Below are positions 4,429 through 62,932 of a DNA stretch of 64,000 bases, in pieces (positions within the stretch are counted from its first letter, which is position 1; each line of letters opens with the position of its first letter). The translations under genes were made by a program, and so were the position numbers. The notes below the pieces were generated by a model, which saw only the letters and a list, made by a program, of their open reading frames with translations, was not told the DNA's origin and made no database searches. This DNA comes from a virus. The DNA lies in the IMG/VR virus record IMGVR_UViG_3300027736_000038, positions 1 through 64,000 of that record. One strand, written 5' to 3'.

Positions 4429-6661
4429 TTACTTTCGCTGTTAATTTTTGTGTTACTGCAAAATCAATTGCACCGTCTGTCATCACAACATTGATTGTAG
4501 CAGATTTAATGCGTTCAAACAATACTTTTTTACTTAGAGGCACCCGAATCAATTCATCAATCTTACGTGCTAATGGTCGTGCGCCCATTTTCTTATCGTA
4601 ACCTTGTTCTGCCAAATACTCAACTACTGGCTCACTCAAGTTCAATGTGATATCATGCTTATCAACCAAACTCTTTTTCAAGTCATCGGTAAACTTGATA
4701 ACAATCTTCTTAATAGCAAGGGTATCTAACTTGTTAAACTTGCAAATCAAGTCAACACGATTTCTAAACTCAGGTTTAAAGAATTCTTTCAATGCTCTAT
4801 CATCTTCACCGGTCTTCTCTTGATTACCAAATCCAATGTTGTTGCGTTCACTATCACTACTACCCAAGTTACTGGTCATGATAATGATACTGTTCTTACA
4901 GTTAACTTGCTTGCCATTAGATCCAGTGATATGACCTTCATCCAACATCTGTAAGAAGATATTAAAGATATCTGGATGTGCTTTCTCAACTTCATCAAAT
5001 AACATGATACTATGTGGGTTCTTACTCAAGTCATTAATCAATCGTCCACCACTCACTTGACTGTCACCAAAGCCAACATATCCAGGAGGAGGTCCAATCA
5101 AACTGCTAACACTATGCTTCTCTCCATACTCACTCATATCATACTTAAGCAATGGCATATCTAAGTTCTTACTCAATAGTTTAGCAAGTTCAGTCTTACC
5201 AGTACCAGTTGGTCCTAAGAATAAGAAACTTGCTGTAGGTTTCTTATCATTGCCGATACCAGCAAATGAAACATAAACACGTTCAAGTACCTGTTGTACA
5301 GTTTCATCTTGTCCGTATAGTTTGTCCTTAATGTTTGATTCTAATTTATGAATCAATTCAAAGTTATCACCCTTCATCTTATCAGCAGGTACGCCAGTGA
5401 ATCGTTCAACTTGGTCAAACACAAGTTCTTTAGTAATCATTGCGCCCTTGTTCTCTGCTACACGTTGTTTAGCACAAGCGGCATCAAGCAAATCAATACT
5501 CTTGTCCGGGTTCTTTCGGTCATGAATGTAACGGTCAGCACTTTCAACTGCTGCTTTGATAGCTTCATCTGTGATTTCAACGTTGTGGAAATCATTCAGT
5601 CGGCTACTCAACCCATTCAGAATACGAATTGTTGTATCATGGTTAGGTTCGTCAACAGTTACACGATAGAACCTACGCATCAATGCACGATCCTTCTCAA
5701 AACTTTCGTAGTATTCTTCCCAAGTTGTGCTAGCAATAACTTTAAGAGTGCCCTTAGTGATTGCGGGTTTAATCATATTAGCAAAGTCAACTGACCCATT
5801 GTTTGAGCCACCTGAACCCTGCATAGTGTGTGCTTCATCAATGAAAAGAATAGTCTTTTTCTTTGTGTTCAGTGCATCTAATACTGCTTTGACCTTTTCT
5901 TCAAAGTCTCCGCGATACTTACTACCAGCAAGCAAACTACCCACTTCTAAACTATATAGTTGATGATCCTGCAAAAATTCTGGAACTTCTTTGTTAATCA
6001 TCATCTGTGCTAGACCTTCAGCAATTGCTGTTTTACCAACGCCAGGATCACCGACCATCAATACGTTTGACTTGAAACGTTTAGCAAGTACGTTAATGAT
6101 ATCATCAAGTTCTTTTGTGCGACCGATCAATGGTTCAAGTTTGCCCTGTGCTGCTAGTTGAGTTAGATTGATTGTATATTCCTCAAGGATCTCGTCAGCT
6201 TGACCATCTGTTAGATTAGTAGTTTCGTTATGTTTATAATTTTTCTGCCAATGTGCTACGAATTCATTTTTGCTAATTCCATACTTCAATAAGAAATAAT
6301 GAGCATGACTATTGCCTTCGGATGCGATACTTAGATATAAATCAACTGTAGTGACTTGTCTACGACCAGTAAACAAAACTTGTGTTACTGAACGATTCAT
6401 TACACGTTCCAAACTATTTGTTTTGCGTGGAACTACTTCATCTTCTTTGCTTACGATAGCATGTAGACTATCCAAATATGAACCAATTTCCAGGATCATA
6501 GTTTCTACATCAGCACCATAACTTACTATACATTTTTTAAATGAAGTGTGGCTTATTAGTGCTAGCAATAAATGTTCTACTGTAACATATTGGTGTTTAC
6601 GACTTTTAGCAAACTCAATTGATTGTTCAATAATGTTTTCGATTTCGGGTGAATGTGTCAT
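4400..6661 (-). CDS. clpA: ClpA-type AAA+ unfoldase
   Basis: A 753-residue Hsp100 protein with the full ClpA layout: N-domain (about 1-140), AAA+ module 1 with Walker A GDPGVGKT (204-211) and Walker B ILFIDEAH (271-278), and AAA+ module 2 with Walker A GPTGTGKT (483-490), pore loop GYVG (527-530) and Walker B IMLFDEVEKAH. No long ClpB-type middle coiled coil is present. Residues 609-611 are IGF in a loop just before the conserved FKPEFRNRVD segment, the place where ClpA carries IGL and ClpX carries IGF to dock on ClpP. The enzyme would unfold proteins with ATP and could feed host ClpP. Its start overlaps the dnaJ stop (ATGA). Confidence 0.93.
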   Translation of the reverse strand: MTHSPEIENIIEQSIEFAKSRKHQYVTVEHLLLALISHTSFKKCIVSYGADVETMILEIGSYLDSLHAIVSKEDEVVPRKTNSLERVMNRSVTQVLFTGRRQVTTVDLYLSIASEGNSHAHYFLLKYGISKNEFVAHWQKNYKHNETTNLTDGQADEILEEYTINLTQLAAQGKLEPLIGRTKELDDIINVLAKRFKSNVLMVGDPGVGKTAIAEGLAQMMINKEVPEFLQDHQLYSLEVGSLLAGSKYRGDFEEKVKAVLDALNTKKKTILFIDEAHTMQGSGGSNNGSVDFANMIKPAITKGTLKVIASTTWEEYYESFEKDRALMRRFYRVTVDEPNHDTTIRILNGLSSRLNDFHNVEITDEAIKAAVESADRYIHDRKNPDKSIDLLDAACAKQRVAENKGAMITKELVFDQVERFTGVPADKMKGDNFELIHKLESNIKDKLYGQDETVQQVLERVYVSFAGIGNDKKPTASFLFLGPTGTGKTELAKLLSKNLDMPLLKYDMSEYGEKHSVSSLIGPPPGYVGFGDSQVSGGRLINDLSKNPHSIMLFDEVEKAHPDIFNIFLQMLDEGHITGSNGKQVNCKNSIIIMTSNLGSSDSERNNIGFGNQEKTGEDDRALKEFFKPEFRNRVDLICKFNKLDTLAIKKIVIKFTDDLKKSLVDKHDITLNLSEPVVEYLAEQGYDKKMGARPLARKIDELIRVPLSKKVLFERIKSATINVVMTDGAIDFAVTQKLTAKVNENGIIEVS

Positions 6662-7464
6662 TTAGACTCCTTTAGTTTTTGTTGAGAAATGCTATTGATA
6701 ACCGCTTCATCAATGATATCAGGAATAAACGGTTTTAGCAAGATTATTTGGTCACCGTATCCACTAGTGTTGTAGATGGGCATACCTTGTCCTGTTAATT
6801 TCAATTGTATATAGGGTTGTGTTCGTGGTTTTACTGTTACCTCAAGTGTTTTTCCAGATAAGGTCGTGAATTCAAAAGTAGTTCCAATAATCAAATCTAA
6901 TACTGATATAGAATGGTTACAAACTAAATCATTACCTTGTCTATCATATTTAAGATGCGGGTCGATACGAAAATCTACTACTAAACTAGCACCATCTAAT
7001 ACGTTATCGATTTTCATTTGATTACCATTTTGTACCCCTTTGGGTATTTGAATAGTTACCGCATGAACATTAGTAGGTGTTTGTAATTTCAATAATTGTT
7101 CACCGCCGTTGAATGCTTGTTCTAGTGATATGTTTATTGTAGTACGGAATACTTGTTGTTGTGGTTGTTGTCTACGTTGATTAAACGGGTCAAACGGGTT
7201 ACCGCCACCAAACATCTGCCCAAATATGTGTTCAAATCCTTGAGGCATTCCACCCTGATGGTGAAATCCTTGTGGCATGGGATTATCATATTGTTGACGT
7301 TTTTCTGGGCTGCTTAATGTATCGTAAGCCGCTTGTATATCTTGAAATTTAGCCTTGTCGCCGCCTTTATCAGGATGATGCTGACTAGCCAATTTGCGAT
7401 ATGATTTTTTTATTTCATCAGGGGTTGCATTTTTACTAACACCCAAAGTATTGTAATGGTCCAT
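6658..7464 (-). CDS. dnaJ: DnaJ-like co-chaperone (Hsp40, type B)
   Basis: A 268-residue J-domain protein. The J domain (1-65) has HPD at 30-32. A Gly/Phe/Met/Pro-rich linker (about 65-115) follows, then two C-terminal substrate-binding beta domains. The Cys-rich zinc domain of DnaJ itself is missing, so it resembles CbpA (type B). It would stimulate the host DnaK ATPase. First gene of an early unit behind a consensus sigma70 promoter (7471-7499) and translationally coupled to clpA by a four-base overlap. Confidence 0.92.
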   Translation of the reverse strand: MDHYNTLGVSKNATPDEIKKSYRKLASQHHPDKGGDKAKFQDIQAAYDTLSSPEKRQQYDNPMPQGFHHQGGMPQGFEHIFGQMFGGGNPFDPFNQRRQQPQQQVFRTTINISLEQAFNGGEQLLKLQTPTNVHAVTIQIPKGVQNGNQMKIDNVLDGASLVVDFRIDPHLKYDRQGNDLVCNHSISVLDLIIGTTFEFTTLSGKTLEVTVKPRTQPYIQLKLTGQGMPIYNTSGYGDQIILLKPFIPDIIDEAVINSISQQKLKESK

Positions 7465-7470
7465 TTAAAC

Positions 7471-7499
7471 ATTATAGCATACTACTATGCTATTGTCAA
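7471..7499 (-). promoter_or_regulatory. Consensus sigma70 promoter for dnaJ-clpA
   Basis: On the minus strand TTGACA (7499-7494), exactly 17 bp, then TATAAT (7476-7471): a perfect match to the bacterial consensus, a few bases before the dnaJ start. The spacer also forms a palindrome, ATAGCATA-GTAG-TATGCTAT (7493-7474), overlapping the -10 box, which could be an operator. Confidence 0.85.
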
Positions 7500-8662: not shown

Positions 8663-9280
8663 TTACATTGCGGGTGCAGGAGGTGCTCCGGGTGGGGCGC
8701 CTGGAGGCATTCCACCCATTCCCATACCTGCATCTTGTTCTTGTTCTTCCTGATCAGTAGTAGAATCTTGATCCAAATCTTCATCATATGAATCATCTAG
8801 TTCTTCCAAATCAATTGTCTGCCCAGCTAAGTCAATAGAGCCTTCTTTAATATCATCCAATAAGTCTTTTGGTATCTCTATGTAAACAAACCAAACTTTC
8901 TTTGGTGCCATCTTAGGATAACGTGTACCAGGAACATAATCTTCATAATCTTTAACTTCTACTGGAACTTCAACTTCAGATTTAGCAAACTTAACCTTAC
9001 ATCCAATTGCTACTAAACGTCTAGCACCTTTGGGATTAGGCATTAACTTGTATGGCCACATGAATATGCAACTAACTGTATAGCGTTTTATGTTAGGACC
9101 TTGAACTAATTCACCTAATTCCCAGTTACGGTAGGCGTAAAGATCGGATTCGTCTAGTACTCGTTCAAAGTCTAGTAGGGTGTTCATTGACCCGTCACTG
9201 GTAAATATACCCTTTACGGTGTCTACAATGCTGACATAATCAACATTATCAAAGAAATTGTCGGCGGCTTCGTGCTTCAT
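8663..9280 (-). CDS. Acidic hypothetical protein with Gly/Pro/Met tail
   Basis: A 205-residue protein. Residues 1-160 form a compact alpha/beta region with aromatic segments (SCIFMWPYKLMPNPKGARRL, KVWFVYIEIP). Residues 160-205 are disordered: a Glu/Asp stretch followed by Gly-Met-Pro-Pro repeats. First gene of a three-gene unit with a late-type motif (9293-9286) only five bases before the ATG, so the message may have almost no leader. No family is recognised. Divergent from phoH across 172 bases. Confidence 0.55.
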   Translation of the reverse strand: MKHEAADNFFDNVDYVSIVDTVKGIFTSDGSMNTLLDFERVLDESDLYAYRNWELGELVQGPNIKRYTVSCIFMWPYKLMPNPKGARRLVAIGCKVKFAKSEVEVPVEVKDYEDYVPGTRYPKMAPKKVWFVYIEIPKDLLDDIKEGSIDLAGQTIDLEELDDSYDEDLDQDSTTDQEEQEQDAGMGMGGMPPGAPPGAPPAPAM

Positions 9281-9285
9281 TAATA

Positions 9286-9293
9286 TATTTATC
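9286..9293 (-). promoter_or_regulatory. Late-type motif close to a start codon
   Basis: GATAAATA on the minus strand, ending five bases before ATG 9280, with no clear ribosome binding site between. If used as a T4-type late promoter, transcription would begin at or near the start codon. Confidence 0.4.
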
Positions 9294-9452
9294 TTTAATT
9301 GATTAATAGCACTATTTCAATATTTTGCTGTTAAGCCAAGTATTTAGTCTAAAATATTGCGTTAAAAGTCTGATACATTACACAAGATTTTTGGCTTTAA
9401 ATAATATTGAGTATTATGAGTACTCACCCGCTCTTATAAAGGAGAATTTACA

Positions 9453-10259: not shown

Positions 10260-10524
10260 ACTTCTGAACTTCTGATTCAGTATTATTCTTTTGTAATTGA
10301 TCAATTAACGTTGGATATACCTTTTTGTAGTATTCAATCATCTTATCCCAATCACTATCTACTACCTTACTTTCAATTACGCATTTGTCAATTTTCTTTT
10401 TATTAAAATCTAAAATGACATTGCAGGTTTGAATGTCAGAGGTGCGTACACGCTTACTAATACTAACTTGTTCATCAATCTGTCCATTAGGTTTACGGAC
10501 AAAGGTAATCAATAAATATCTCAC
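10258..10524 (-). CDS. Conserved small phage protein downstream of gp44
   Basis: An 88-residue basic alpha/beta protein (MRYLLITFVRKPNGQIDEQV) with a helical C-terminal part. Its ATG overlaps the stop of the clamp loader gene by four bases (ATGA), so it is coupled to it. Small proteins of this kind follow replication genes in other T4-like phages as far as I recall, with no assigned role. It is not recognisably gp62, the small clamp loader subunit. The stop codon lies inside the terminator. Confidence 0.6.
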   Translation of the reverse strand: MRYLLITFVRKPNGQIDEQVSISKRVRTSDIQTCNVILDFNKKKIDKCVIESKVVDSDWDKMIEYYKKVYPTLIDQLQKNNTESEVQK

Positions 10525-11447
10525 GATGTTAACTCCACTAATGTTGCTGCTAATGAGATTTCAGGAATTCCAACTAACGGCAAGTTTGCTAGACCATTAC
10601 GAATGACAATGATACTAGCATCACGTTTTTCTTGTTGCTTTCCCCATAAGTCTAAGTTGTCATACATCCACCTGTAAGTATCTTCAATACGTGTTGGGTA
10701 CAACGCAATGTATTGCATCAGTTGCTGGCGACCCTCAAGAATTTTACCAGCTTTAAACAATGTTGTTGCTTCTAACAGTAACTCGTGTTCACTATTACCT
10801 TCTGATTGTGGGGGCAATAGCTTACCTGTGCTGCTATTGACTTGTAGTTGATTCAAACATTTACGCAAGTCTGGATATGCTACACGAACATAACTATCCA
10901 ATGTATCCAAATCAAACTCAATGCCCTCAGTTACAAGAACAGTTGCTGCCCTTGCAGTGTACTCAGTACGATCGGGTTTAGCGATATGAAACTTGTGACA
11001 ACGACTTTCACGCAATGCTGGAATGATTTTGTGTTCATAGTTACAAGTAAGAATGAATCTTACTGTATCAGCATATGCTTCCATATCATTACGCAATGCT
11101 GCTTGAAACTCTGGACTTGTATAGTCAGCTTCATCAAGTAGAATCACTTTAAACTTACCGAAGGGCATTGTTTGAGCAAATCCATTAATCTTATCACGCA
11201 CAACTGCCACACCATTCTCACGACTAGCATTGATTTCTAATACATCATAATCTTCTACACCAAGTTCATTAATTAAAACTTTAGCAAGAGTAGTCTTACC
11301 TGTGCCCGGGTCACCACTTAGTAATAGATGTGGGATAGAACCATTAGCGATCCAACCTTCTACTTGTTGTTTTTGTCGTTCATCTACAAAGACATAATCT
11401 GTTACAGATTTTGGACGATAACGCTCAACCCAAAGTTGGTTCTTCAT
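10521..11447 (-). CDS. 44: Sliding clamp loader large subunit (gp44-like)
   Basis: A 308-residue AAA+ clamp loader ATPase. It begins LWVERYRPKSV, the typical start of gp44/RFC small subunits. Walker A SGDPGTGKTT (44-53), Walker B LLDEADY (103-109) and the SRC arginine-finger motif (148-150) are intact. It would open and load the phage sliding clamp onto primer-template DNA. The subunit gp62 and clamp gp45 are not in this window. It is coupled on both sides by four-base overlaps within the early operon starting at 13025. Confidence 0.93.
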   Translation of the reverse strand: MKNQLWVERYRPKSVTDYVFVDERQKQQVEGWIANGSIPHLLLSGDPGTGKTTLAKVLINELGVEDYDVLEINASRENGVAVVRDKINGFAQTMPFGKFKVILLDEADYTSPEFQAALRNDMEAYADTVRFILTCNYEHKIIPALRESRCHKFHIAKPDRTEYTARAATVLVTEGIEFDLDTLDSYVRVAYPDLRKCLNQLQVNSSTGKLLPPQSEGNSEHELLLEATTLFKAGKILEGRQQLMQYIALYPTRIEDTYRWMYDNLDLWGKQQEKRDASIIVIRNGLANLPLVGIPEISLAATLVELTS

Positions 11448-11755
11448 TTTCTAAGCATCTCCAATGTTATAATGTGTGAAATACCTTGACCTAAGTCTTG
11501 ATCACTAGTAATGATATGCAATGCAGTATTGCGTTCATCTGTTCTAGGATCGTATTTGTTGTACTCCATAACATATCCGCCGTTTGCTGAATGTATTGTA
11601 AAGTTCATACCATTTGACTGATCTATCCTACGACCTGAATTAATAGTACCAATACCAATAGATTTTGAAGGTAAGTTTACATCCCCGTCAGAACGGACTT
11701 TATTCCAATCTTCTCTAACCCAGCTAATAACTTTTTGCTTAAACCAATTTATCAT
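11444..11755 (-). CDS. Conserved phage protein between GroES-like and gp44
   Basis: A 103-residue protein beginning with an amphipathic helix (MINWFKQKVISWVREDW) followed by beta strands (MNFTIHSANGGYVMEY, ALHIITSD). The pattern, with Gly-rich turns and a C-terminal HIITLEMLRK, looks like a family shared by many environmental T4-like phages; I know no function. Its start overlaps the end of the co-chaperonin gene by one base and its stop overlaps gp44 by four, so it is fully embedded in the early operon. Confidence 0.6.
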   Translation of the reverse strand: MINWFKQKVISWVREDWNKVRSDGDVNLPSKSIGIGTINSGRRIDQSNGMNFTIHSANGGYVMEYNKYDPRTDERNTALHIITSDQDLGQGISHIITLEMLRK

Positions 11756-12135
11756 TAATACACCTTGTCGCTAAATGTTTCGTCATATACTTGTTCATCT
11801 GACGCTAATAGTATATCACTAGGATCAACTCTACGCAATGTTTTCTTACCCGTTTCATCTTCAATGTCGATACCACGTGTCCAACGACCATGACTTACCA
11901 TGACCCATAATTCTTCATACAAATCAGGGTCTTTATTCTCTGCACCAATCTTGTATATCTTTCCCCAACGAGGCCTGATACCTGCACTTTTCATATCATC
12001 ATTTGGTAATAGTATACCACTAGTGGTAATACGAACATCAAAACTCATATCATAAACAATGATATGTGCGCCGATTGGTCTGAATTGGTCTTTAGTGAAT
12101 TTATGCGGGTCAAATGCTAATTTCTTTTCTTCCAT
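11755..12135 (-). CDS. GroES/gp31-like co-chaperonin
   Basis: A 126-residue protein with the beta-barrel pattern of GroES: FRPIGAHIIVYDM, then a flexible loop (RITTSGILLPNDDMKSAGIR) where GroES carries its mobile GroEL-binding loop, then WGKIYKIG and a C-terminal DILLAS strand. In T4, gp31 replaces GroES so that host GroEL can fold the major capsid protein; a similar role is likely here. The start ATG 12135 lies one base after the upstream stop (TAACATG) and is preferred over an upstream ATG overlapping that gene. Assignment rests on fold pattern, as sequence identity to GroES is low. Confidence 0.7.
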   Translation of the reverse strand: MEEKKLAFDPHKFTKDQFRPIGAHIIVYDMSFDVRITTSGILLPNDDMKSAGIRPRWGKIYKIGAENKDPDLYEELWVMVSHGRWTRGIDIEDETGKKTLRRVDPSDILLASDEQVYDETFSDKVY

Positions 12136-12136
12136 G

Positions 12137-12499
12137 TTATTTCTTCTTTGTTTCTTTGGCTTTGATTTGTTCAACTTCCAAATCATCATTAAACGATTCT
12201 TCCAATTCCAATTCTTCTGGGGTTAACTCAATCAAATCAAGTGTTGGGGTAGGGGCAGAATCTGGTTGAATTGTTGGTCTAGGTCTTTTTAGCGGTTGAG
12301 CAGAACGATTACCTACTGTTTTGCTGTATGCATTATTTACCTTTTCAGTCACGGGTTTGATAACTTTACCAAATGCATCAATGGTATCACCACGTGCATT
12401 TAGATTTTTAACATTACCCACTGCTCTTGTTTTTTCATTTTTGGATACTAGTGCTGACATATCAACACTTTTTCCCATTGCGGATCTAACTATAGCCAT
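12137..12499 (-). CDS. Conserved basic/acidic phage protein
   Basis: A 120-residue protein starting MAIVRSAMGKSVDMSALVSK with a segment RAVGNVKNLNARGDTID that I associate with a family widespread in T4-like environmental phages. The middle is Pro-rich; the C-terminus is strongly acidic (LTPEELELEESFNDDLEVE) and ends in lysines. Probably disordered outside the N-terminal block. A role in DNA binding or as an adaptor is a guess. It lies between the DnaE-like fragment and the co-chaperonin. Confidence 0.6.
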   Translation of the reverse strand: MAIVRSAMGKSVDMSALVSKNEKTRAVGNVKNLNARGDTIDAFGKVIKPVTEKVNNAYSKTVGNRSAQPLKRPRPTIQPDSAPTPTLDLIELTPEELELEESFNDDLEVEQIKAKETKKK

Positions 12500-12509
12500 T
12501 TTAATCTCC

Positions 12510-13025
12510 TTATTTTAAAAATTCATCTACCGATAATTGGTAGTACAAACTATTTATACGATGAATTCCAATCAAATACAATACATAGCTTGCTACACTA
12601 CTACCACGACCTACGCCCCATACAATATTGTTTCTACGCATTGTGTCAACTAGATATTTTAAATACTTCAATAATGGGAACATATCCCTATCATGGAATT
12701 TTATTAATTCGTTGCCTGCACGTTGCAGTTCTTCTTCGTTTTTACATTGATCTAATACCCATTTAGCAATATCCATTTCGTAGTATTCTACGGGCATTTG
12801 CCACTGAGATTGATTTTCTTTATCAAATTCTTCAACTGATAATTTTTTATCTATGTATTCTACTAATGTAGGTAGATTTTCTTCTGAGAGAAAGATGTGC
12901 GTACTGTCCAGATTTATTTGCTTATCTACAAGACAATCTTTAATGGTGCGGGCTGGATCACTCATATACAAATCACACAGATCATCTTCTGTGAGAATTA
13001 TTTGTCCATAATTATCAATTTTCAT
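12510..13025 (-). CDS. N-terminal half of a miniature DNA polymerase III alpha
   Basis: A 171-residue protein. Residues 110-171 match the DnaE palm just before the catalytic aspartates: FPLLKYLKYLVDTMRRNNI, then WGVGRGSSVASYVLYLIGI (136-154; GRGS at 139-142) and YYQLSVDEFLK at the very end, corresponding to the DnaE stretch ending in FERFLN. The PHP domain is absent. The protein stops exactly where DnaE would continue into its catalytic D-x-D motif, which instead begins the separate gene at 61190-61801. No intein-like sequence is seen at the C-terminus. First gene of the early operon, behind a sigma70 promoter. It is probably inactive alone. Confidence 0.75.
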   Translation of the reverse strand: MKIDNYGQIILTEDDLCDLYMSDPARTIKDCLVDKQINLDSTHIFLSEENLPTLVEYIDKKLSVEEFDKENQSQWQMPVEYYEMDIAKWVLDQCKNEEELQRAGNELIKFHDRDMFPLLKYLKYLVDTMRRNNIVWGVGRGSSVASYVLYLIGIHRINSLYYQLSVDEFLK

Positions 13026-13031
13026 CTATGT

Positions 13032-13060
13032 ATTATAACATAGACTTTTGTGTAAATCAA
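13032..13060 (-). promoter_or_regulatory. Sigma70 promoter for the DnaE-N to gp44 operon
   Basis: On the minus strand TTGATT (13060-13055), 17 bp, TATAAT (13037-13032), directly upstream of ATG 13025. The -10 is perfect and the -35 has four of six consensus bases. Confidence 0.75.
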
Positions 13061-52522: not shown

Positions 52523-53209
52523 CTATACAAATTTCATATAGTATTGCTCTACCCGCTTAAACCACATGTCACTATACTTGTCAAATTCAGTACCTTCAAT
52601 GATGAATTCCTGATAAACAACATCAGCGGTACACATAAAAATGACGCCTTTGCGTATCTTAGTCCCGTGTACTTCATTGTGAGCATTGGCATACGCTGCT
52701 AGTTGAATAAAGTAATCGTCAATCCACTCACGCTTTTTGAATTTGTTAGATTGTTTGTGGTCCATAATAGCATCACTTCCATCATGCACCCCGCACAAGT
52801 CAGTTGTGCCTGCATAGATTTTAGGGAAGTATAAAGGAACTTCTGTTCCCCAGTATTCGTTACATTTCACTAATCCCTGTTCAATAATTTGCTTTGCCAT
52901 TTTGTGACTTTGAATACTGTAGGGATTGCTGCCAGGCTCAGTAACTATACCTGTCTTGATATAATCCTCAAGAAACTTGTGCATACGTGTGCCACGTCCT
53001 GCTGCCTCAGTTGTAATCTCTTGTGCTTTTTGAACACCAACTCGTTTGCGCCAGTTATGTAATGCTTGTTTACTTTCTTCTGACTTGGTTGCGTCTAGTA
53101 TTGTTGTAACGCTTGGAAGTTTCTCACCATCTGGTGTAGCATATCTACGTTTGCCTTCAATTTCTACCCTGCTCATGAGTATATAGTTGTATTTGTTTGG
53201 ATTGTACAT
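52523..53209 (-). CDS. PD-(D/E)XK exonuclease (RecB/Cas4-like)
   Basis: A 228-residue nuclease with the RecB-family layout: SVTTILD near residue 33, AAGRGTRMHKFLEDYI (motif around His), GTTDLCGVHDGSDAIMDHKQ with the catalytic D-x-K of DHKQSNKFKK, and the QLAAYANAHNEVHG motif. Such enzymes process DNA ends in recombination or host DNA degradation. It stands alone behind a perfect sigma70 promoter, in the middle of late genes, which marks it as early. The ORF starts at 53209; a second Met 11 codons later (MSRVEIEGKRRYATPDGEKL) is an alternative start. Confidence 0.85.
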   Translation of the reverse strand: MYNPNKYNYILMSRVEIEGKRRYATPDGEKLPSVTTILDATKSEESKQALHNWRKRVGVQKAQEITTEAAGRGTRMHKFLEDYIKTGIVTEPGSNPYSIQSHKMAKQIIEQGLVKCNEYWGTEVPLYFPKIYAGTTDLCGVHDGSDAIMDHKQSNKFKKREWIDDYFIQLAAYANAHNEVHGTKIRKGVIFMCTADVVYQEFIIEGTEFDKYSDMWFKRVEQYYMKFV

Positions 53210-53217
53210 TATAGTAA

Positions 53218-53246
53218 ATTATAGTTGATTATAATACTAATGTCAA
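53218..53246 (-). promoter_or_regulatory. Consensus sigma70 promoter for the exonuclease
   Basis: On the minus strand TTGACA (53246-53241), 17 bp, TATAAT (53223-53218): perfect match. It begins next to the IscA stop, so it separates an early gene from the late unit upstream. Confidence 0.85.
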
Positions 53247-57579: not shown

Positions 57580-59022
57580 TTATTTCTTTAAGGAATTCAA
57601 CAATGTCTTAAATTTTGATCCCTGTATTTCAGCATGAACTGTTCTAGTCAACGGTTCTAATGTTATTTCTTCAGTACTTTGATCAACAGTATAATCTGTA
57701 ACTGTAGCTTGTGGTTTTAATGTACTCATTATGTCATTTGCGCTTGGCTTTGGTGTGTAACTCTGTTCACCATCGACCCCGGGGTCACTGATACGCATAG
57801 TCTCAACATCATATTCTAAATCAATCTTCATTCCTACGCCAGTTGAACTACGACTTTTCATACATTGAATCTGATACTTGCCACGCTCACGCATACTGCG
57901 ACTTGTGAAGATACCAAACACGTTATCTGCTGTGTTAATCTTACTGATACCGCCTGCAATATGACTATGGTCAAATTCTTGTTCGTCAACAGCACTACGA
58001 TTTAACTGACTTGCGGTAACTAACAAGACACCAAGTTCCTTTGCTAAATTACGCAATTCTTCTGCTACATACTTATCTTTAATAAACTGATCAGTGGGGC
58101 TAACATTAATAGACACTGGCATAACCAAATCTAAGTAATCAATCATAACAAAGTCAATTTTAATACCAGTTTGAATTTGCACCTCTTTTAAATAAGCACG
58201 AATATCATTTACATTGCTTTGTGCCGGTAATGCTTTAACCCGATACTTTCCAGACTTCTTACCTGCTATCTTAACTCTAAGTTCTGTTGTATCAATATCT
58301 TTACGAATTGCTTTTGTACCCATCATGGTTAACATTGCATCTGTACGCAACGATGTTAATTCTTCACTCAATTCCAGGGTAATATATGCACCACTCAATC
58401 CCATTTGTAACCAGCTTAATGCAATGTTCATCATCACAAGTGATTTACCTGAACCTGAACCACCTGCAAAGATATTCAATTCACCTCTACTCATGCCACC
58501 ATACAAAATACGATCCATTTGTGGCCAGCCTGTTGATACTTGTCCACCACTATTAAAATATTTGTTGATACGACCTTTAGGATCAGCAAAGTAATCTGTA
58601 CCCATGTCTCTTTGTAAACTAATTTGTACCGCATCTTTGATTAGTTTTTCAACTGGTTCAAAATCACCCTTCTCAAGTAAGTCTGCTGCCTTAAGAATAG
58701 CACGTTCTAATTCTTGTCTTTTGGTAAATGATTCAAATTCGTCAAAGAACCATTCATAATGACCTTCATTCAATTCTGGGATAGGGTCAATATCTATTCC
58801 GGTTGTTGCTTTAATTTGTGTAGAGTCCGGTAATACTCTATATTTGTCGGTATGTGTTTTAAATAATTCAGCCACTGGTTTTAGCGAACGATCAAAATTC
58901 TCGCTATTCATAATATTCATAACACGGGTATACAATTCCGCGTTTGTAATCATCATCCTCAGAAACAGCTTCTGAACATCAGATGTGTATTCTAATTGTT
59001 TTTTAGATTCCTGCTTTGCCAA
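57580..59022 (-). CDS. 41: Replicative DNA helicase (gp41-like)
   Basis: A 480-residue DnaB-family helicase. An N-terminal helical domain (1-150) precedes the RecA-like core: GGMSRGELNIFAGGSGSGKS with Walker A GGSGSGKS (187-194), IDFVMIDYLDL (Walker B), VLLVTASQLNRSA and the C-terminal IQCMKSRSSTGVG segment with the Arg finger region. It unwinds DNA 5'-3' at the fork with the primase. Translated from the primase transcript, which overlaps it by 20 bases. Confidence 0.93.
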   Translation of the reverse strand: MAKQESKKQLEYTSDVQKLFLRMMITNAELYTRVMNIMNSENFDRSLKPVAELFKTHTDKYRVLPDSTQIKATTGIDIDPIPELNEGHYEWFFDEFESFTKRQELERAILKAADLLEKGDFEPVEKLIKDAVQISLQRDMGTDYFADPKGRINKYFNSGGQVSTGWPQMDRILYGGMSRGELNIFAGGSGSGKSLVMMNIALSWLQMGLSGAYITLELSEELTSLRTDAMLTMMGTKAIRKDIDTTELRVKIAGKKSGKYRVKALPAQSNVNDIRAYLKEVQIQTGIKIDFVMIDYLDLVMPVSINVSPTDQFIKDKYVAEELRNLAKELGVLLVTASQLNRSAVDEQEFDHSHIAGGISKINTADNVFGIFTSRSMRERGKYQIQCMKSRSSTGVGMKIDLEYDVETMRISDPGVDGEQSYTPKPSANDIMSTLKPQATVTDYTVDQSTEEITLEPLTRTVHAEIQGSKFKTLLNSLKK

Positions 59023-59977
59023 TTTTTTTCCTTTGCATTTCTATTTTGATTTTACTATTTGTTGCACATTGTAGTATACTTAATAGGGTAGGTAATTTAC
59101 CATATTTAACTACTGCATCATTTACATCTTTTACATCACTATCCCAATTTGGTAAACTAACACTATAACCCAATTCCAATGCTTTATCACACAATTCTAA
59201 TCCCGTCTTATCTCTATCTGGGACTAGTATAATTTGTTTGTTCAATGTGCTTAATAGTAATGCTTGTTCAGGATTGATATCATTATGCATTATTGCCACA
59301 CCGTCAATACTCAATGCATCAAATATTCCTTCAGTTACAATACAAACGCTCCAGTCTGGTTTTTGCATATCAATATTAAATACATAACCGTGTTGTTGTT
59401 CATTGATATACTTAGGTATTTTATCATCTAAAAATCTACTTGTATGACCTACTATAGTATTATTATAGGTGTAAGGGATGATTACTCTATTACCCATCCT
59501 GCCTTTTGCATTTGGAGTGATTAAAAAAGGATAAGCATTAATATCTATCTTTCTCAATTGCAGATAGTCTACATATACTTTGTGCAATGGATTATTAATA
59601 TCCACAATATCGCCGGCGGGCAATTGGTGTTCGTTAAAGGTAATCTTTATGCGTTGTTTTACTGGACGAGTGAAATCTATCAAATCTTTATTCTGTAGAC
59701 TTTGTAAATTCCACCTTTGAATTTGAATATCATCTATACCGCACCATTTTAATAATGTTCTAGTTTTTATTAAAATAGGTTGCCCTAAAGTGAAGCCTGT
59801 TTTGAATCCACAATTAAAACAAGCATATACCCAATTTCCCCCATCGAACATGATGCCACCGCGCAATCTTTGATCTGGTCGATGATTAAAGTGGTGACAA
59901 CAAACCGCGTTAAAGATAGTCCAACCAGTACTAGTTTTTCTTTTTTTGCCGGGTATTATTGACAGGATATCAAACAT
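59003..59977 (-). CDS. 61: DNA primase (gp61-like)
   Basis: A 324-residue primase. Residues 26-56 hold a zinc-binding pattern (CCHHF, then CFNCGF). The TOPRIM core shows VTEGIFDALSIDG (catalytic Glu) and LVPDRDKTG (D-x-D). It makes RNA primers for lagging-strand synthesis and works as a primosome with gp41, encoded directly downstream. A sigma70-like promoter (59984-60012) lies just upstream. Confidence 0.9.
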   Translation of the reverse strand: MFDILSIIPGKKRKTSTGWTIFNAVCCHHFNHRPDQRLRGGIMFDGGNWVYACFNCGFKTGFTLGQPILIKTRTLLKWCGIDDIQIQRWNLQSLQNKDLIDFTRPVKQRIKITFNEHQLPAGDIVDINNPLHKVYVDYLQLRKIDINAYPFLITPNAKGRMGNRVIIPYTYNNTIVGHTSRFLDDKIPKYINEQQHGYVFNIDMQKPDWSVCIVTEGIFDALSIDGVAIMHNDINPEQALLLSTLNKQIILVPDRDKTGLELCDKALELGYSVSLPNWDSDVKDVNDAVVKYGKLPTLLSILQCATNSKIKIEMQRKKIGKAGI

Positions 59978-60865: not shown

Positions 60866-61246
60866 ATGATCCAAAACGAATTCTTTAAACGATTGACAGA
60901 AAATCACCCGTTCATTACAGTATGTTCATATGCCAACCAAGATTATGTAGGTATTGTTCAAAACCGTGATGACATGGTCACCACTATATATGATTACGGT
61001 GCTATAACCGATAACACAATCAAAGAAAAGTTCTTAGAATTAGGAGAAGTTTGGTGGTGGGAAAGTAATCGTCTTGTCCCTATCAATCTGTTTTTAAAGG
61101 ATGATTGGCTACCCTTTAAACCCTACTTAAGGACCTTTACTAACAAAAGTCTAGTAGTGGTTCACGGTCCAACGTGCAGTATGAATGAATTAAGTAAACG
61201 CCGTAGTAAACGCCGTAGCATCACCCTCGTTAAGAGAATGCCCTAA
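60866..61246 (+). CDS. Conserved T4-like phage protein (126 aa)
   Basis: An alpha/beta protein: FITVCSYANQDYVGIVQNRD, TTIYDYGAITDN, GEVWWWESNRLVPINLFLKD and a basic end with SKRRSKRRS. I recall the pattern as well conserved across T4-like cyanophages, without assigned function. Monocistronic plus-strand gene with its own late promoter. Its last 57 bases overlap the convergent polymerase III alpha fragment, and the overlap contains a 12-bp tandem duplication. Confidence 0.65.
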   Translation: MIQNEFFKRLTENHPFITVCSYANQDYVGIVQNRDDMVTTIYDYGAITDNTIKEKFLELGEVWWWESNRLVPINLFLKDDWLPFKPYLRTFTNKSLVVVHGPTCSMNELSKRRSKRRSITLVKRMP

Positions 61247-61801
61247 CAAATTCATGTGAACAACTACTAGTTGTGCGTAGGCTACACTATGACTACGTTT
61301 GAATACATACCCATCAGTTCCCTTATCCCATACAGTTTTACTAATCTCACTCCAAGATTTCCCAATCAAATGCTTTTTACCAGGACGAATAACTGCTAAA
61401 AACATAGATAATCTTGGGATACTATCTATAGGTTCTGGCATCTTCTCTAAATTGTAGTACTGATTATTCAAGTGAATAAGTTTTTCAACAAAAGATTTAT
61501 CCTTCAGTTTACTCCAATCAGGCTCAACCATCAATTCATTAAGATGTTGTTCATCTCTGACATTCTCATAAACATGAACATTCAACAAATCTAGTTTGAA
61601 GTAACCACGCTTCTCGGCTTCTGTATAGTCAATACTTGCGATATCATGTATTGGATCATAGGGAATAGGTGTAACATATACACCAGTAGCATGTTTACGA
61701 ATAGGATTGACATTACGCATTGCTGCGCTTGTATGTTTAATCAGTTCAAGCAATTTATCTCTTGAACCAAAGTCAATGTCAATATCACTATCTATTCTCA
61801 T
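61190..61801 (-). CDS. C-terminal half of a miniature DNA polymerase III alpha
   Basis: A 203-residue protein that begins where the 171-residue protein at 12510 ends. SDIDIDFGSRDKLLELIKH holds Asp8 and Asp10, matching catalytic D401 and D403 of E. coli DnaE (DVDF). RKHATGVYVTPIP matches GKHAGGVVIAP; FKLDLLNVHVYENV gives Asp71 for D555; SMFLAVIRPG (132-141) and FKRSHSVAYAQ (167-177) match ALFRPGP and FNKSHSAAYAL. PHP, fingers, tau-binding and C-terminal domains are missing. With the other fragment it would rebuild a palm-like core. Coupled to the 105-residue gene by an overlap; a DEDD exonuclease gene lies just upstream. Confidence 0.78.
   Translation of the reverse strand: MRIDSDIDIDFGSRDKLLELIKHTSAAMRNVNPIRKHATGVYVTPIPYDPIHDIASIDYTEAEKRGYFKLDLLNVHVYENVRDEQHLNELMVEPDWSKLKDKSFVEKLIHLNNQYYNLEKMPEPIDSIPRLSMFLAVIRPGKKHLIGKSWSEISKTVWDKGTDGYVFKRSHSVAYAQLVVVHMNLLGHSLNEGDATAFTTAFT
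61193..61218. repeat. 12-bp tandem duplication in a coding overlap
   Basis: AGTAAACGCCGT occurs twice in a row (61193-61204, 61205-61216). It is read as SKRRSKRR on the plus strand and as repeated TAF residues at the end of the minus-strand gene. Confidence 0.8.
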
Positions 61802-62115
61802 CCTCTGAACCCCGGTAGATTATCCCAGTCACCGTTCCAATCGGGGGGTAACCACGGGTTAGTGAAATCACGTTCGGAAGGCCCTTCTACTTTTAAATCA
61901 AACGCCTTTGCAAACTTTTTTGCGTCTTTTTTAAATTTAAAACTAAACTCTATTACCTCTTTATTATCTACTAAATCAGTACAATCTTCAGCATCAATGA
62001 CAGTTATGTTGTTATCAACTAACCAAGTCATCAACTTAAAATCATCTTCATTCTGCATATAGTCATCATATTCTTTTTCCGTTTCAAATTTATATGCTAC
62101 AATATATACCATCAT
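61798..62115 (-). CDS. Hypothetical acidic protein (105 aa)
   Basis: An alpha/beta protein (VYIVAYKFETEKEYDDYMQN, FKLMTWLVDNNITVIDAEDC, VIEFSFKFKKDAKKFAKAFD) with a beta-alpha-beta ferredoxin-like pattern and a Pro/Trp/Gly-rich end (NPWLPPDWNGDWDNLPG). Its ATG overlaps the exonuclease stop and its stop overlaps the polymerase fragment start. It could be a partner of the replication proteins around it, which is inference only. Confidence 0.6.
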   Translation of the reverse strand: MMVYIVAYKFETEKEYDDYMQNEDDFKLMTWLVDNNITVIDAEDCTDLVDNKEVIEFSFKFKKDAKKFAKAFDLKVEGPSERDFTNPWLPPDWNGDWDNLPGFRG

Positions 62116-62660
62116 GGTGCCATTACTCCTGCTTTAATTAGTTTAGTATACGCTTTTTGTACAACAATTGCTTGTCTTTCGGCATCTTCTACTGCTTTGT
62201 GACTAGTAGAATGTCCGCCATCACTTAGTTTGACTCCTGCAACTTCATACAACGTTCTAGTATCTCGTACGGTATAGAATGGCCACGGTATTCGCACTCC
62301 AAGTTGCCTCCATGCGGTCTCGCAAGCAACGATATCAAATGCAGCCCCATTAGACCACACAGCACGGCGATTCCAACAAAACTTATAAAGGGTTTCCATA
62401 CATTCACTAAATGAAACACGTCCTTCATCTCCCATCGCTTCTTCAAGTGCGGCAGGGCTTTGTTTTGCCCACCATTCAATTGTACTGTCATCAATTATCC
62501 TATCATATTTTTCTGTCTGTTCTTCAATCGTAGGACGCAATTCTAATCGTTCTACTACACCATTACCCTTAGGATCAAACCGCACAGCTCCTATAGTTAA
62601 TATAACACAATATGGACTTGTGTCAAGTGTCTCCAAATCAATCATTATATCATTTGCCAT
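62112..62660 (-). CDS. DEDD 3'-5' exonuclease (DexA-like)
   Basis: A 182-residue DnaQ-fold exonuclease. IMIDLETLDTSPYCVILTIG (Exo I: D-x-E), WSNGAAFDIVACETAW (Exo II Asp) and STSHKAVEDAERQAIVVQKA (Exo III: H-x4-D) supply all catalytic residues. STIEWWAKQSPAALEEA matches T4 DexA. It would degrade or proofread DNA. The start ATG 62660 shares one base with the upstream stop (TAATG); a GTG 12 bases earlier is possible. Placed upstream of a polymerase III alpha fragment, it recalls the epsilon proofreading subunit. Confidence 0.82.
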   Translation of the reverse strand: MANDIMIDLETLDTSPYCVILTIGAVRFDPKGNGVVERLELRPTIEEQTEKYDRIIDDSTIEWWAKQSPAALEEAMGDEGRVSFSECMETLYKFCWNRRAVWSNGAAFDIVACETAWRQLGVRIPWPFYTVRDTRTLYEVAGVKLSDGGHSTSHKAVEDAERQAIVVQKAYTKLIKAGVMAP

Positions 62661-62932
62661 TACATCTGCCACATTTCATACATTGTTATAAATCTATCAT
62701 CCCACAACTCTATTGTAACACATCCTCCAGCTAAAGAGAAGTCCCAACCTTGGTGTCTTTCACCAAAATTTCTTCTCATCCATTTTACAATGATAGATGG
62801 ATCCTCTTTATGATATCTACAATCTCTTTGATAGACTGTTTTGTGTCCTGCTTTATATTTGTTATCCTTACATAAAGAGCCTGAGGCATTGGGATATGCT
62901 GGATGGAAACATTCTGTGTATTTTATTGCCAT
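62660..62932 (-). CDS. Small protein at the 3' end of the LRW array
   Basis: A 90-residue protein with a Cys/His-rich N-terminal part (YTECFHPAYPNASGSLCKDN, RDCRYHKED) and a C-terminal part (IIVKWMRRNFGERHQGWDF, then CVTIELWDDRFITMYEMW) with the same helix-strand-strand plan as the LRW proteins upstream, ending MYEMWQM. The start ATG 62932 lies one base after the upstream stop, with GGGGAT as ribosome binding site. Function unknown. Confidence 0.6.
   Translation of the reverse strand: MAIKYTECFHPAYPNASGSLCKDNKYKAGHKTVYQRDCRYHKEDPSIIVKWMRRNFGERHQGWDFSLAGGCVTIELWDDRFITMYEMWQM

Follow-up and report, generated by a model that had tools for sequence, protein, structure and literature searches.

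The window analysed here, a stretch of 64,000 nucleotides from the virus record IMGVR_UViG_3300027736_000038, carries on its minus strand two small genes, about 48 kb apart, whose products correspond to adjoining parts of DNA polymerase III alpha (Pol III alpha, or DnaE). The initial annotation had reported both open reading frames, and we found them with the coordinates, lengths and strand that it gave. We refer to the products as the N-half and the C-half. The features at the two loci are as follows.

13032..13060, minus strand: sigma70-like promoter TTGATT-17-TATAAT, a 10/12 match ending 6 nt ahead of the N-half ATG
12510..13025, minus strand: N-half of the split minimal Pol III alpha, 171 aa (PF07733, phrog_11127; predicted model aligned to DnaE)
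12137..12499, minus strand: conserved small protein, next after the N-half (phrog_14844, E 3.7e-7)
11755..12189, minus strand: GroES-like or 'head morphogenesis' protein (phrog_931, E 7.1e-8)
10521..11447, minus strand: gp44-type clamp loader ATPase (phrog_168, E 1.4e-69)
62112..62672, minus strand: DexA/Rv2179c-type DEDD 3'-5' exonuclease (PF16473, E 6.6e-33; phrog_255 exonuclease, E 1.1e-42)
61798..62115, minus strand: 105-aa open reading frame between the exonuclease and the C-half, with an ATGA overlap at both ends
61190..61801, minus strand: C-half, 203 aa, palm and shortened fingers (phrog_11778; predicted model aligned to DnaE; catalytic residues shared with relatives)
60866..61246, plus strand: convergent conserved gene (phrog_11637, E 6.7e-31), its 3' end overlapping the 3' end of the C-half gene
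59003..59977, minus strand: toprim primase (PF13155, E 1.1e-4)
57580..59022, minus strand: DnaB-type helicase (PF03796, E 7.3e-19)

The initial annotation had expected profile searches to recognize both proteins, and they did so, the N-half in Pfam and PHROG and the C-half in PHROG. The N-half matches the Pfam model DNA_pol3_alpha (PF07733) over its cut-off with E 1.5e-8, and this model is over the cut-off on the N-half in 16/16 records searched. It also matches PHROG 11127, 'DNA polymerase', with E 2.9e-40. A profile built from 11 N-halves finds E. coli DnaE residues 318-392 (E 3.8e-6), and hhalign of an N-half alignment (A1) against 40 DnaE cores gives E 8.7e-10 and probability 96. In the protein, about 70 N-terminal residues are followed by palm helices and by GRGS at 139-142, and the chain ends just ahead of the catalytic DxD. 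The first ~70 residues have no assigned fold, and this counts against reading the pair as two subunits of one enzyme.

The C-half matches PHROG 11778, also 'DNA polymerase', with E 5.8e-56, and three longer phage Pol III families weakly at the finger motif (E 0.006-0.012). Searched alone it has no Pfam match, which again counts against the two-subunit reading, and as a single sequence it returns weak unrelated matches only among solved structures. Of the C-halves in 15 records, only those of XacN1 and CM1 score against the Pfam Pol III finger model, each marginally above the cut-off. The profile built from 11 C-halves reaches DnaE at E ~2, at 606-641 and 738-767 and in the correct order, which may be taken as weak, collinear support for kinship with Pol III. 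With hhalign, C-half alignments against 40 DnaE cores give E 9.7e-4 and probability 22 (alignment A2) or E 1.6e-4 and probability 51 (A6); against DnaE plus a single-chain phage core, the values are E 3.5e-6 and probability 88 (A2) or E 1e-4 and probability 58 (A6). That the larger A6 does no better than A2 once the phage core is included is perhaps owing to its narrow lineage range.

The two proteins adjoin at the active site. The N-half terminates in DEFLK-stop and the C-half opens with MRIDSDIDIDF, and the junction falls where it had been proposed, with the alignment of the former to E. coli DnaE ending at residue 393 and that of the latter starting at 397. DnaE-like sequence occupies the N-half end and the C-half start with no extra segment, and no split intein is visible at the junction, as the initial annotation had also noted. 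Cyanobacterial split DnaE is likewise encoded by two distant genes, but there the cut lies at another site and the parts are rejoined by an intein, whereas here it lies at the active site. In motif alignments, SDIDIDF at residue 5 of the C-half corresponds to PDFDVDF at residue 400 of E. coli DnaE, so that D6 and D8 are equivalent to D401 and D403, D10 to D405, and D71 to D555. We take D401, D403 and D555 to be the catalytic set of the E. coli enzyme, which makes D6, D8 and D71 the presumed triad of the C-half. Asp8, Asp10 and Asp71 had been named instead; three catalytic aspartates are indeed present, but the first two are shifted by one step.

Conservation was assessed in 90 sequences per half, drawn from 80 metagenome loci and 10 isolates. 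Besides the catalytic aspartates D6, D8 and D71, the C-half carries K69 and the motifs HxxG, RPxK and SHxxxYA. Invariant in 90/90 are G137, G139, R140, G141, S142 and S146 of the N-half and D6, D8, D10, H37, G40, K69, D71, R139, P140 and K142 of the C-half; H171 and Y175 are found in 89/90, one sequence being cut off. The RP and SHxxxYA motifs are therefore kept, as claimed, and both the GRGS and the three catalytic aspartates of C-family polymerases are found in the 90/90 relatives and in the motif alignments. Compared with close relatives, dN/dS is 0.05-0.09 for the N-half (4 pairs) and 0.10-0.16 for the C-half (5 pairs; 0.07-0.14 when restricted to residues 1-186); synonymous sites show partial saturation. 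From about residue 187 onward, the tail of the C-half is antisense to the convergent gene at 60866..61246.

Predicted folds agree with the profiles. AlphaFold2 models of each half, made singly, reached pLDDT 86.4 (N) and 87.5 (C). In Foldseek, Pol III alpha and PolC chains are the top matches for both halves, with probability near 1 and nothing else credible, although the best E-values are 1.1e-3 (C) and 1.2e-2 (N) and none for either half reaches 0.001. In VIA-align, with rows ranked under the Pol III entries left out, N-half residues 72-171 superpose on E. coli DnaE 279-393 (2hqa; Z 9.7, rmsd 2.7, 97 aligned) and C-half residues 1-199 on 397-833 (4jom; Z 8.2, rmsd 4.0, 194 aligned). The best C-half matches are 3e0d and PolC 3f2c, at Z 9.2, and its Z of 6.8-8.4 on E. 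coli entries is close to the level reachable by unrelated models. The models tile without overlap at 393/397, and therefore cover adjoining parts of one catalytic domain. Independent chance matches of the two halves are ruled out: each has its own PHROG family, and both are found in the same phages and have the same fold relative.

Much of Pol III alpha is missing, in line with the loss of PHP and most accessory domains claimed at the outset. A PHP domain was found in 0/15 of the relatives' 27 records and not in the window's 77-kb record, with 14/14 control genomes positive, and the N-half alignment starts only at DnaE residue ~279, beyond the PHP domain that marks C-family polymerases. At the other end, the C-half alignment stops at DnaE 833, leaving out the clamp-binding, OB and tau-binding C-terminal regions. 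K36 follows D10 by 26 residues, whereas in E. coli DnaE K510 follows D405 by 105, so the thumb is missing; P140 and H171 are separated by 31 residues, against 120 from P640 to H760, so the fingers are short. With the thumb gone and the fingers reduced, the grip on DNA has no explanation, and this counts against a polymerase. Compared with DnaE and PolC as a whole, GRGS, DxD, HxxG, KxD, RP and SHxxxYA follow one another in identical order on a palm fold, but the split pair is two chains of 374 aa in total rather than 1160 and is devoid of PHP, thumb, clamp-binding and OB regions.

The two genes travel together, as the initial annotation had predicted. Among INPHARED records, 62 match the N-half and 63 the C-half, and among the matches listed, 58/60 N-half records are also in the 60 C-half records. 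The unshared entries are two Alishewanella phages, CM1 and a Klebsiella record of 109 kb; profile searches find both halves in CM1 and in one of the Alishewanella phages, Slickus01. Profile searches of 11 isolate phages, chosen for matching at least one half, found exactly one N-half, one C-half and a family B polymerase in 11/11, with the halves separated by 10.9 to 224 kb in linear coordinates; phages with the pair include RaK2, GAP32, PBECO4, PA5oct, Atu_ph07, SCTP-2 and XacN1. In 16 metagenome records, which may be fragments, the N-half was found in 13, the C-half in 14, both in 11 and a family B polymerase in 9; no family B polymerase was found in the window's own 77-kb record, itself a fragment, and this counts against the two-subunit reading. 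IMG/VR holds at least 587 N-like and at least 597 C-like stretches. A fusion of the halves was sought but did not turn up, with no C-half match in 80 N-half loci and no N-half match in 80 C-half loci (flanks of up to 10 kb, often less), and no N- or C-half frame in the 27 records is long enough for both, save for a separate 570-codon frame in the relative G011.

Some deposited gene models obscure these proteins. That of the Atu_ph07 C-half (L005:5986-6066, NC_042013.1) starts late and omits the catalytic DxD, that of the Vibrio 2.275.O N-half (L014:4770-4940, MG592671.1) starts late and omits part of the N-terminus, and several C-halves are annotated as 'putative membrane protein'.

The N-half gene lies with the clamp loader, the C-half gene with primase and helicase. 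Scored by downstream position and not by strand, the N-half is followed in 62/62 related loci with room by the gp44-type gene, as expected from the claimed association with a clamp loader, and in 62/62 by the GroES-like gene; the conserved small protein lies at most 600 bases after it in 57/62. On the same scoring, both the toprim primase and the DnaB-type helicase are downstream of the C-half in 57/57 loci with room. The searches that yielded the metagenome loci ranked them by how similar they are to the window, and the neighbourhood counts therefore describe the window's lineage. In the isolate regions viewed, clamp loader genes near the N-half and primase-helicase genes near the C-half recur in most, as in the window.

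The sigma70 promoter claimed for the N-half gene is present, although sigma70-like matches in this region are as a class no more frequent than in shuffled sequence (21 against 24.9 expected). Its position would put transcription initiation on or close to the A of the ATG and predicts a leaderless mRNA. We took the best promoter with at least 9 of 12 matching positions at each of 78 related N-half loci that have a start codon: its -10 box lies at -13 to -11 in 52 and elsewhere in 3, and 23 have no such promoter; a Shine-Dalgarno-like stretch occurs in 3 of the 78. Reducing the set to 51 representatives below 70% identity leaves a -10 box (at least 4 of 6, with T1, A2 and T6 kept) exactly at -12 in 23 and at -11 in 7. 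Control genes of the same loci mostly have no such promoter (none in 77/79 for the C-half, 59/71 for gp44 and 27/28 for the helicase). The isolates differ from the window's lineage in this respect: a TAnnnT box at -13 to -11 was found in 0/9 isolate N-half genes examined, and an own promoter of leaderless type before the N-half is a feature of the window's lineage.

Other genes in the window have similarly placed promoters. Two perfect TTGACA-17-TATAAT promoters at 7471-7499 and 53218-53246 (minus strand) end 6 and 8 bases before ATG codons at 7464 and 53209. In related loci, the best promoter has its -10 box at -13 to -11 in 39/45 for the gene at 6658-7464, in 35/68 for the primase (start 59977) and in 9/26 for the exonuclease at 52523-53209, for which 14/26 have none. 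The genes starting at 7464, 53209 and 59977 are predicted to form a set with leaderless mRNAs. Separately, GATAAATATATTA at 9281-9296 (minus strand) stands immediately 5' of the ATG of the gene at 8663-9280, with similar sequence in the relatives shown; it resembles a T4-type late promoter.

Upstream of the C-half, the DexA/Rv2179c-type exonuclease is encoded on the same strand in 57/65 related loci with at least 700 upstream bases. The spacing in these 65 is an ATGA stop-start in 29, otherwise at most 15 bases in 7 and 16-1300 bases in 21, with no exonuclease seen in 8. Among 31 representatives below 75% identity, the corresponding counts are 9, 5, 13 and 2, with 2 more having no upstream sequence. 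The exonuclease is within 0.8 kb upstream and on the same strand in 12/14 metagenome records, and no exonuclease-C-half fusion was seen in 67 loci carrying both. The 105-aa frame between them in the window has a match with a start codon in only 1 related locus. Sequence context of this kind makes the exonuclease a candidate proofreading partner of the C-half in the window's lineage. Counter to this, the place and family of the exonuclease vary among isolates: an RNase_T-type exonuclease is within 5 kb of the C-half in 6/11, upstream in RaK2, GAP32, PBECO4 and the Vibrio phage and downstream in XacN1 and CM1 (that of CM1 also matching the Rv2179c model), and the RNase_T and Rv2179c models detected none near the C-half in 5/11. 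Furthermore, an exonuclease at this position is unsurprising, as the C-half sits in a replication cluster anyway. On the opposite strand, the phrog_11637 gene is present in 76/77 C-half loci with room, at most 300 bases from the C-half's end in 47/77. Its protein, aligned also from 9 isolates, has conserved WW, R and P and a basic tail, and the gene is a single reverse gene retained inside a long operon.

A split Pol III of this kind is already on record. Comparing genomes, Iyer et al. 2021 (PMC7824862) described a minimal Pol III divided in two in jumbo phages of 'group 2.2' and proposed the split form as a model for the ancestor of Pol III. The split-core reading of the window is thus correct yet was published in 2021, and the window is an additional member of this known kind. 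That paper reports the same distant genes and the same cut between NTP-binding and metal-binding parts, with no PHP found, and the family B polymerase of our isolate relatives is also a group 2.2 trait there (PMC7824862). As for a further trait, the absence of other Pol III domains, G011 carries an extra single-chain core and the window's record is a 77-kb fragment. An exonuclease partner had already been suggested for relatives, and the CBB paper (PMC5259590) reports an alpha-like protein truncated to 172 aa along with an epsilon of the DnaQ type. The window's lineage, known from metagenomes, differs from the isolates in having a DexA/Rv2179c-type exonuclease close to or directly before the C-half. 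Its ATGA coupling to the C-half and the leaderless promoter go beyond the portions of the published descriptions available to us. A jumbo-phage paper (PMC5312081) notes that phage transcripts are often leaderless, and we therefore do not claim this trait as new in kind. Fragments of fewer than 200 residues were excluded from a survey of DNA polymerases of bacteria published in 2026 (PMC12926913). A literature search of open-licence papers found no report of a laboratory test of a split Pol III.

Another reduced phage enzyme is the single-chain core of G011 (L187:6890-8569, plus strand). At 559 aa, this Pol III core without a PHP domain (PF07733, 1.3e-42; PF17657, 1.4e-16), which has a relative in the uncultured phage LR756508, is encoded by a phage that carries the split pair and a family B polymerase as well. 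It shares with the split pair its phage origin, the reduction of Pol III, the lack of PHP and the company of a family B polymerase, but it is one chain, with a longer stretch of about 80 residues from DxD to KHCGG and a Pfam finger domain. In addition, lengths and match positions in PHROG 13169, 7513 and 12219 hint at phage Pol III proteins that end near DxD (~460 aa) or start just before it (~820 aa). They may represent an additional, larger enzyme divided at about this position.

Looking across the analysis, the split pair is real, homologous to Pol III and under selection. Profiles, tiling predicted folds, co-occurrence and invariant catalytic residues support the proposal that these are a reduced core of Pol III alpha, divided immediately ahead of its aspartates. 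The two halves are very likely one functional unit, of which polymerase activity is a prediction, and we consider it probable that together they form a two-subunit, reduced C-family polymerase core. The N-half would supply the first palm helices and the GRGS that holds the phosphates of the incoming nucleotide, and the C-half the metal-binding D6, D8 and D71, the active-site K69, the remaining palm and short fingers. We infer that the halves most likely assemble non-covalently, giving one Pol beta-like palm that would add nucleotides to a primer. Because the PHP, thumb, clamp-binding and OB regions are missing, such an enzyme would probably be accessory, serving to fill gaps or to synthesize DNA on the lagging strand or in repair, next to the family B replicase. 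The DEDD 3'-5' exonuclease, which is produced immediately ahead of the C-half in the window's lineage, may proofread for it. A possible though doubtful extension is a three-part minimal replicase in which the GRGS half, the aspartate half and the translationally coupled DEDD exonuclease would make up a proofreading, clamp-free and thumb-less enzyme of ~560 aa, its active site available only when two separately regulated genes, one leaderless and one in the primase-helicase cluster, are both expressed.

Alternatively, the same palm could serve a nucleotidyl transferase that copies no template, such as an end-tailing or nucleotide-sensing enzyme. The absent thumb, shortened fingers and lack of PHP or C-terminal domains would fit this, as would the family B replicase that the isolates already have. 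Yet the nucleotide-binding GRGS, RPxK and SHxxxYA and the three aspartates are invariant or nearly so, and the genes sit with those for clamp loader, primase, helicase and exonuclease. We regard a transferase as unlikely, and the 'non-polymerase derivative' that the initial annotation had kept as an alternative as less likely than a polymerase.

Host replication is a frequent phage target, and likeness to a host subunit might suggest decoys or inhibitors of host Pol III for which catalysis is unnecessary. In Pol III alpha, distinct regions bind beta and tau and the PHP domain binds epsilon; these are precisely the parts that are missing, and a decoy would have no need to keep each catalytic residue in 90/90. 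Such a role is very improbable. It is also highly unlikely that the halves act separately rather than as a single enzyme. Their genes are indeed non-adjacent in the 11 isolates, and within the window's lineage a dedicated promoter precedes the N-half and none the C-half, but neither half alone contains a whole Pol III active site and both are kept in 11/11 isolates. Decay of a captured dnaE, for which one could cite the short, split proteins and in-frame stop codons in one N-half frame (G003) and one C-half frame (G015) among 27 records, is refuted by conservation, given dN/dS of 0.05-0.16, the invariant active site and hundreds of relatives.

If the halves form an enzyme as we propose, it would be, to our knowledge, the smallest C-family polymerase. 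It would also offer a natural experiment on the parts of Pol III that catalysis requires. The gene order, in turn, yields a concrete, testable hypothesis on small proteins, namely that the exonuclease is the proofreading subunit. Finally, such an enzyme would bear on whether the split form is a Pol III reduced to its core or, following the proposal of Iyer et al., a model of its ancestor.
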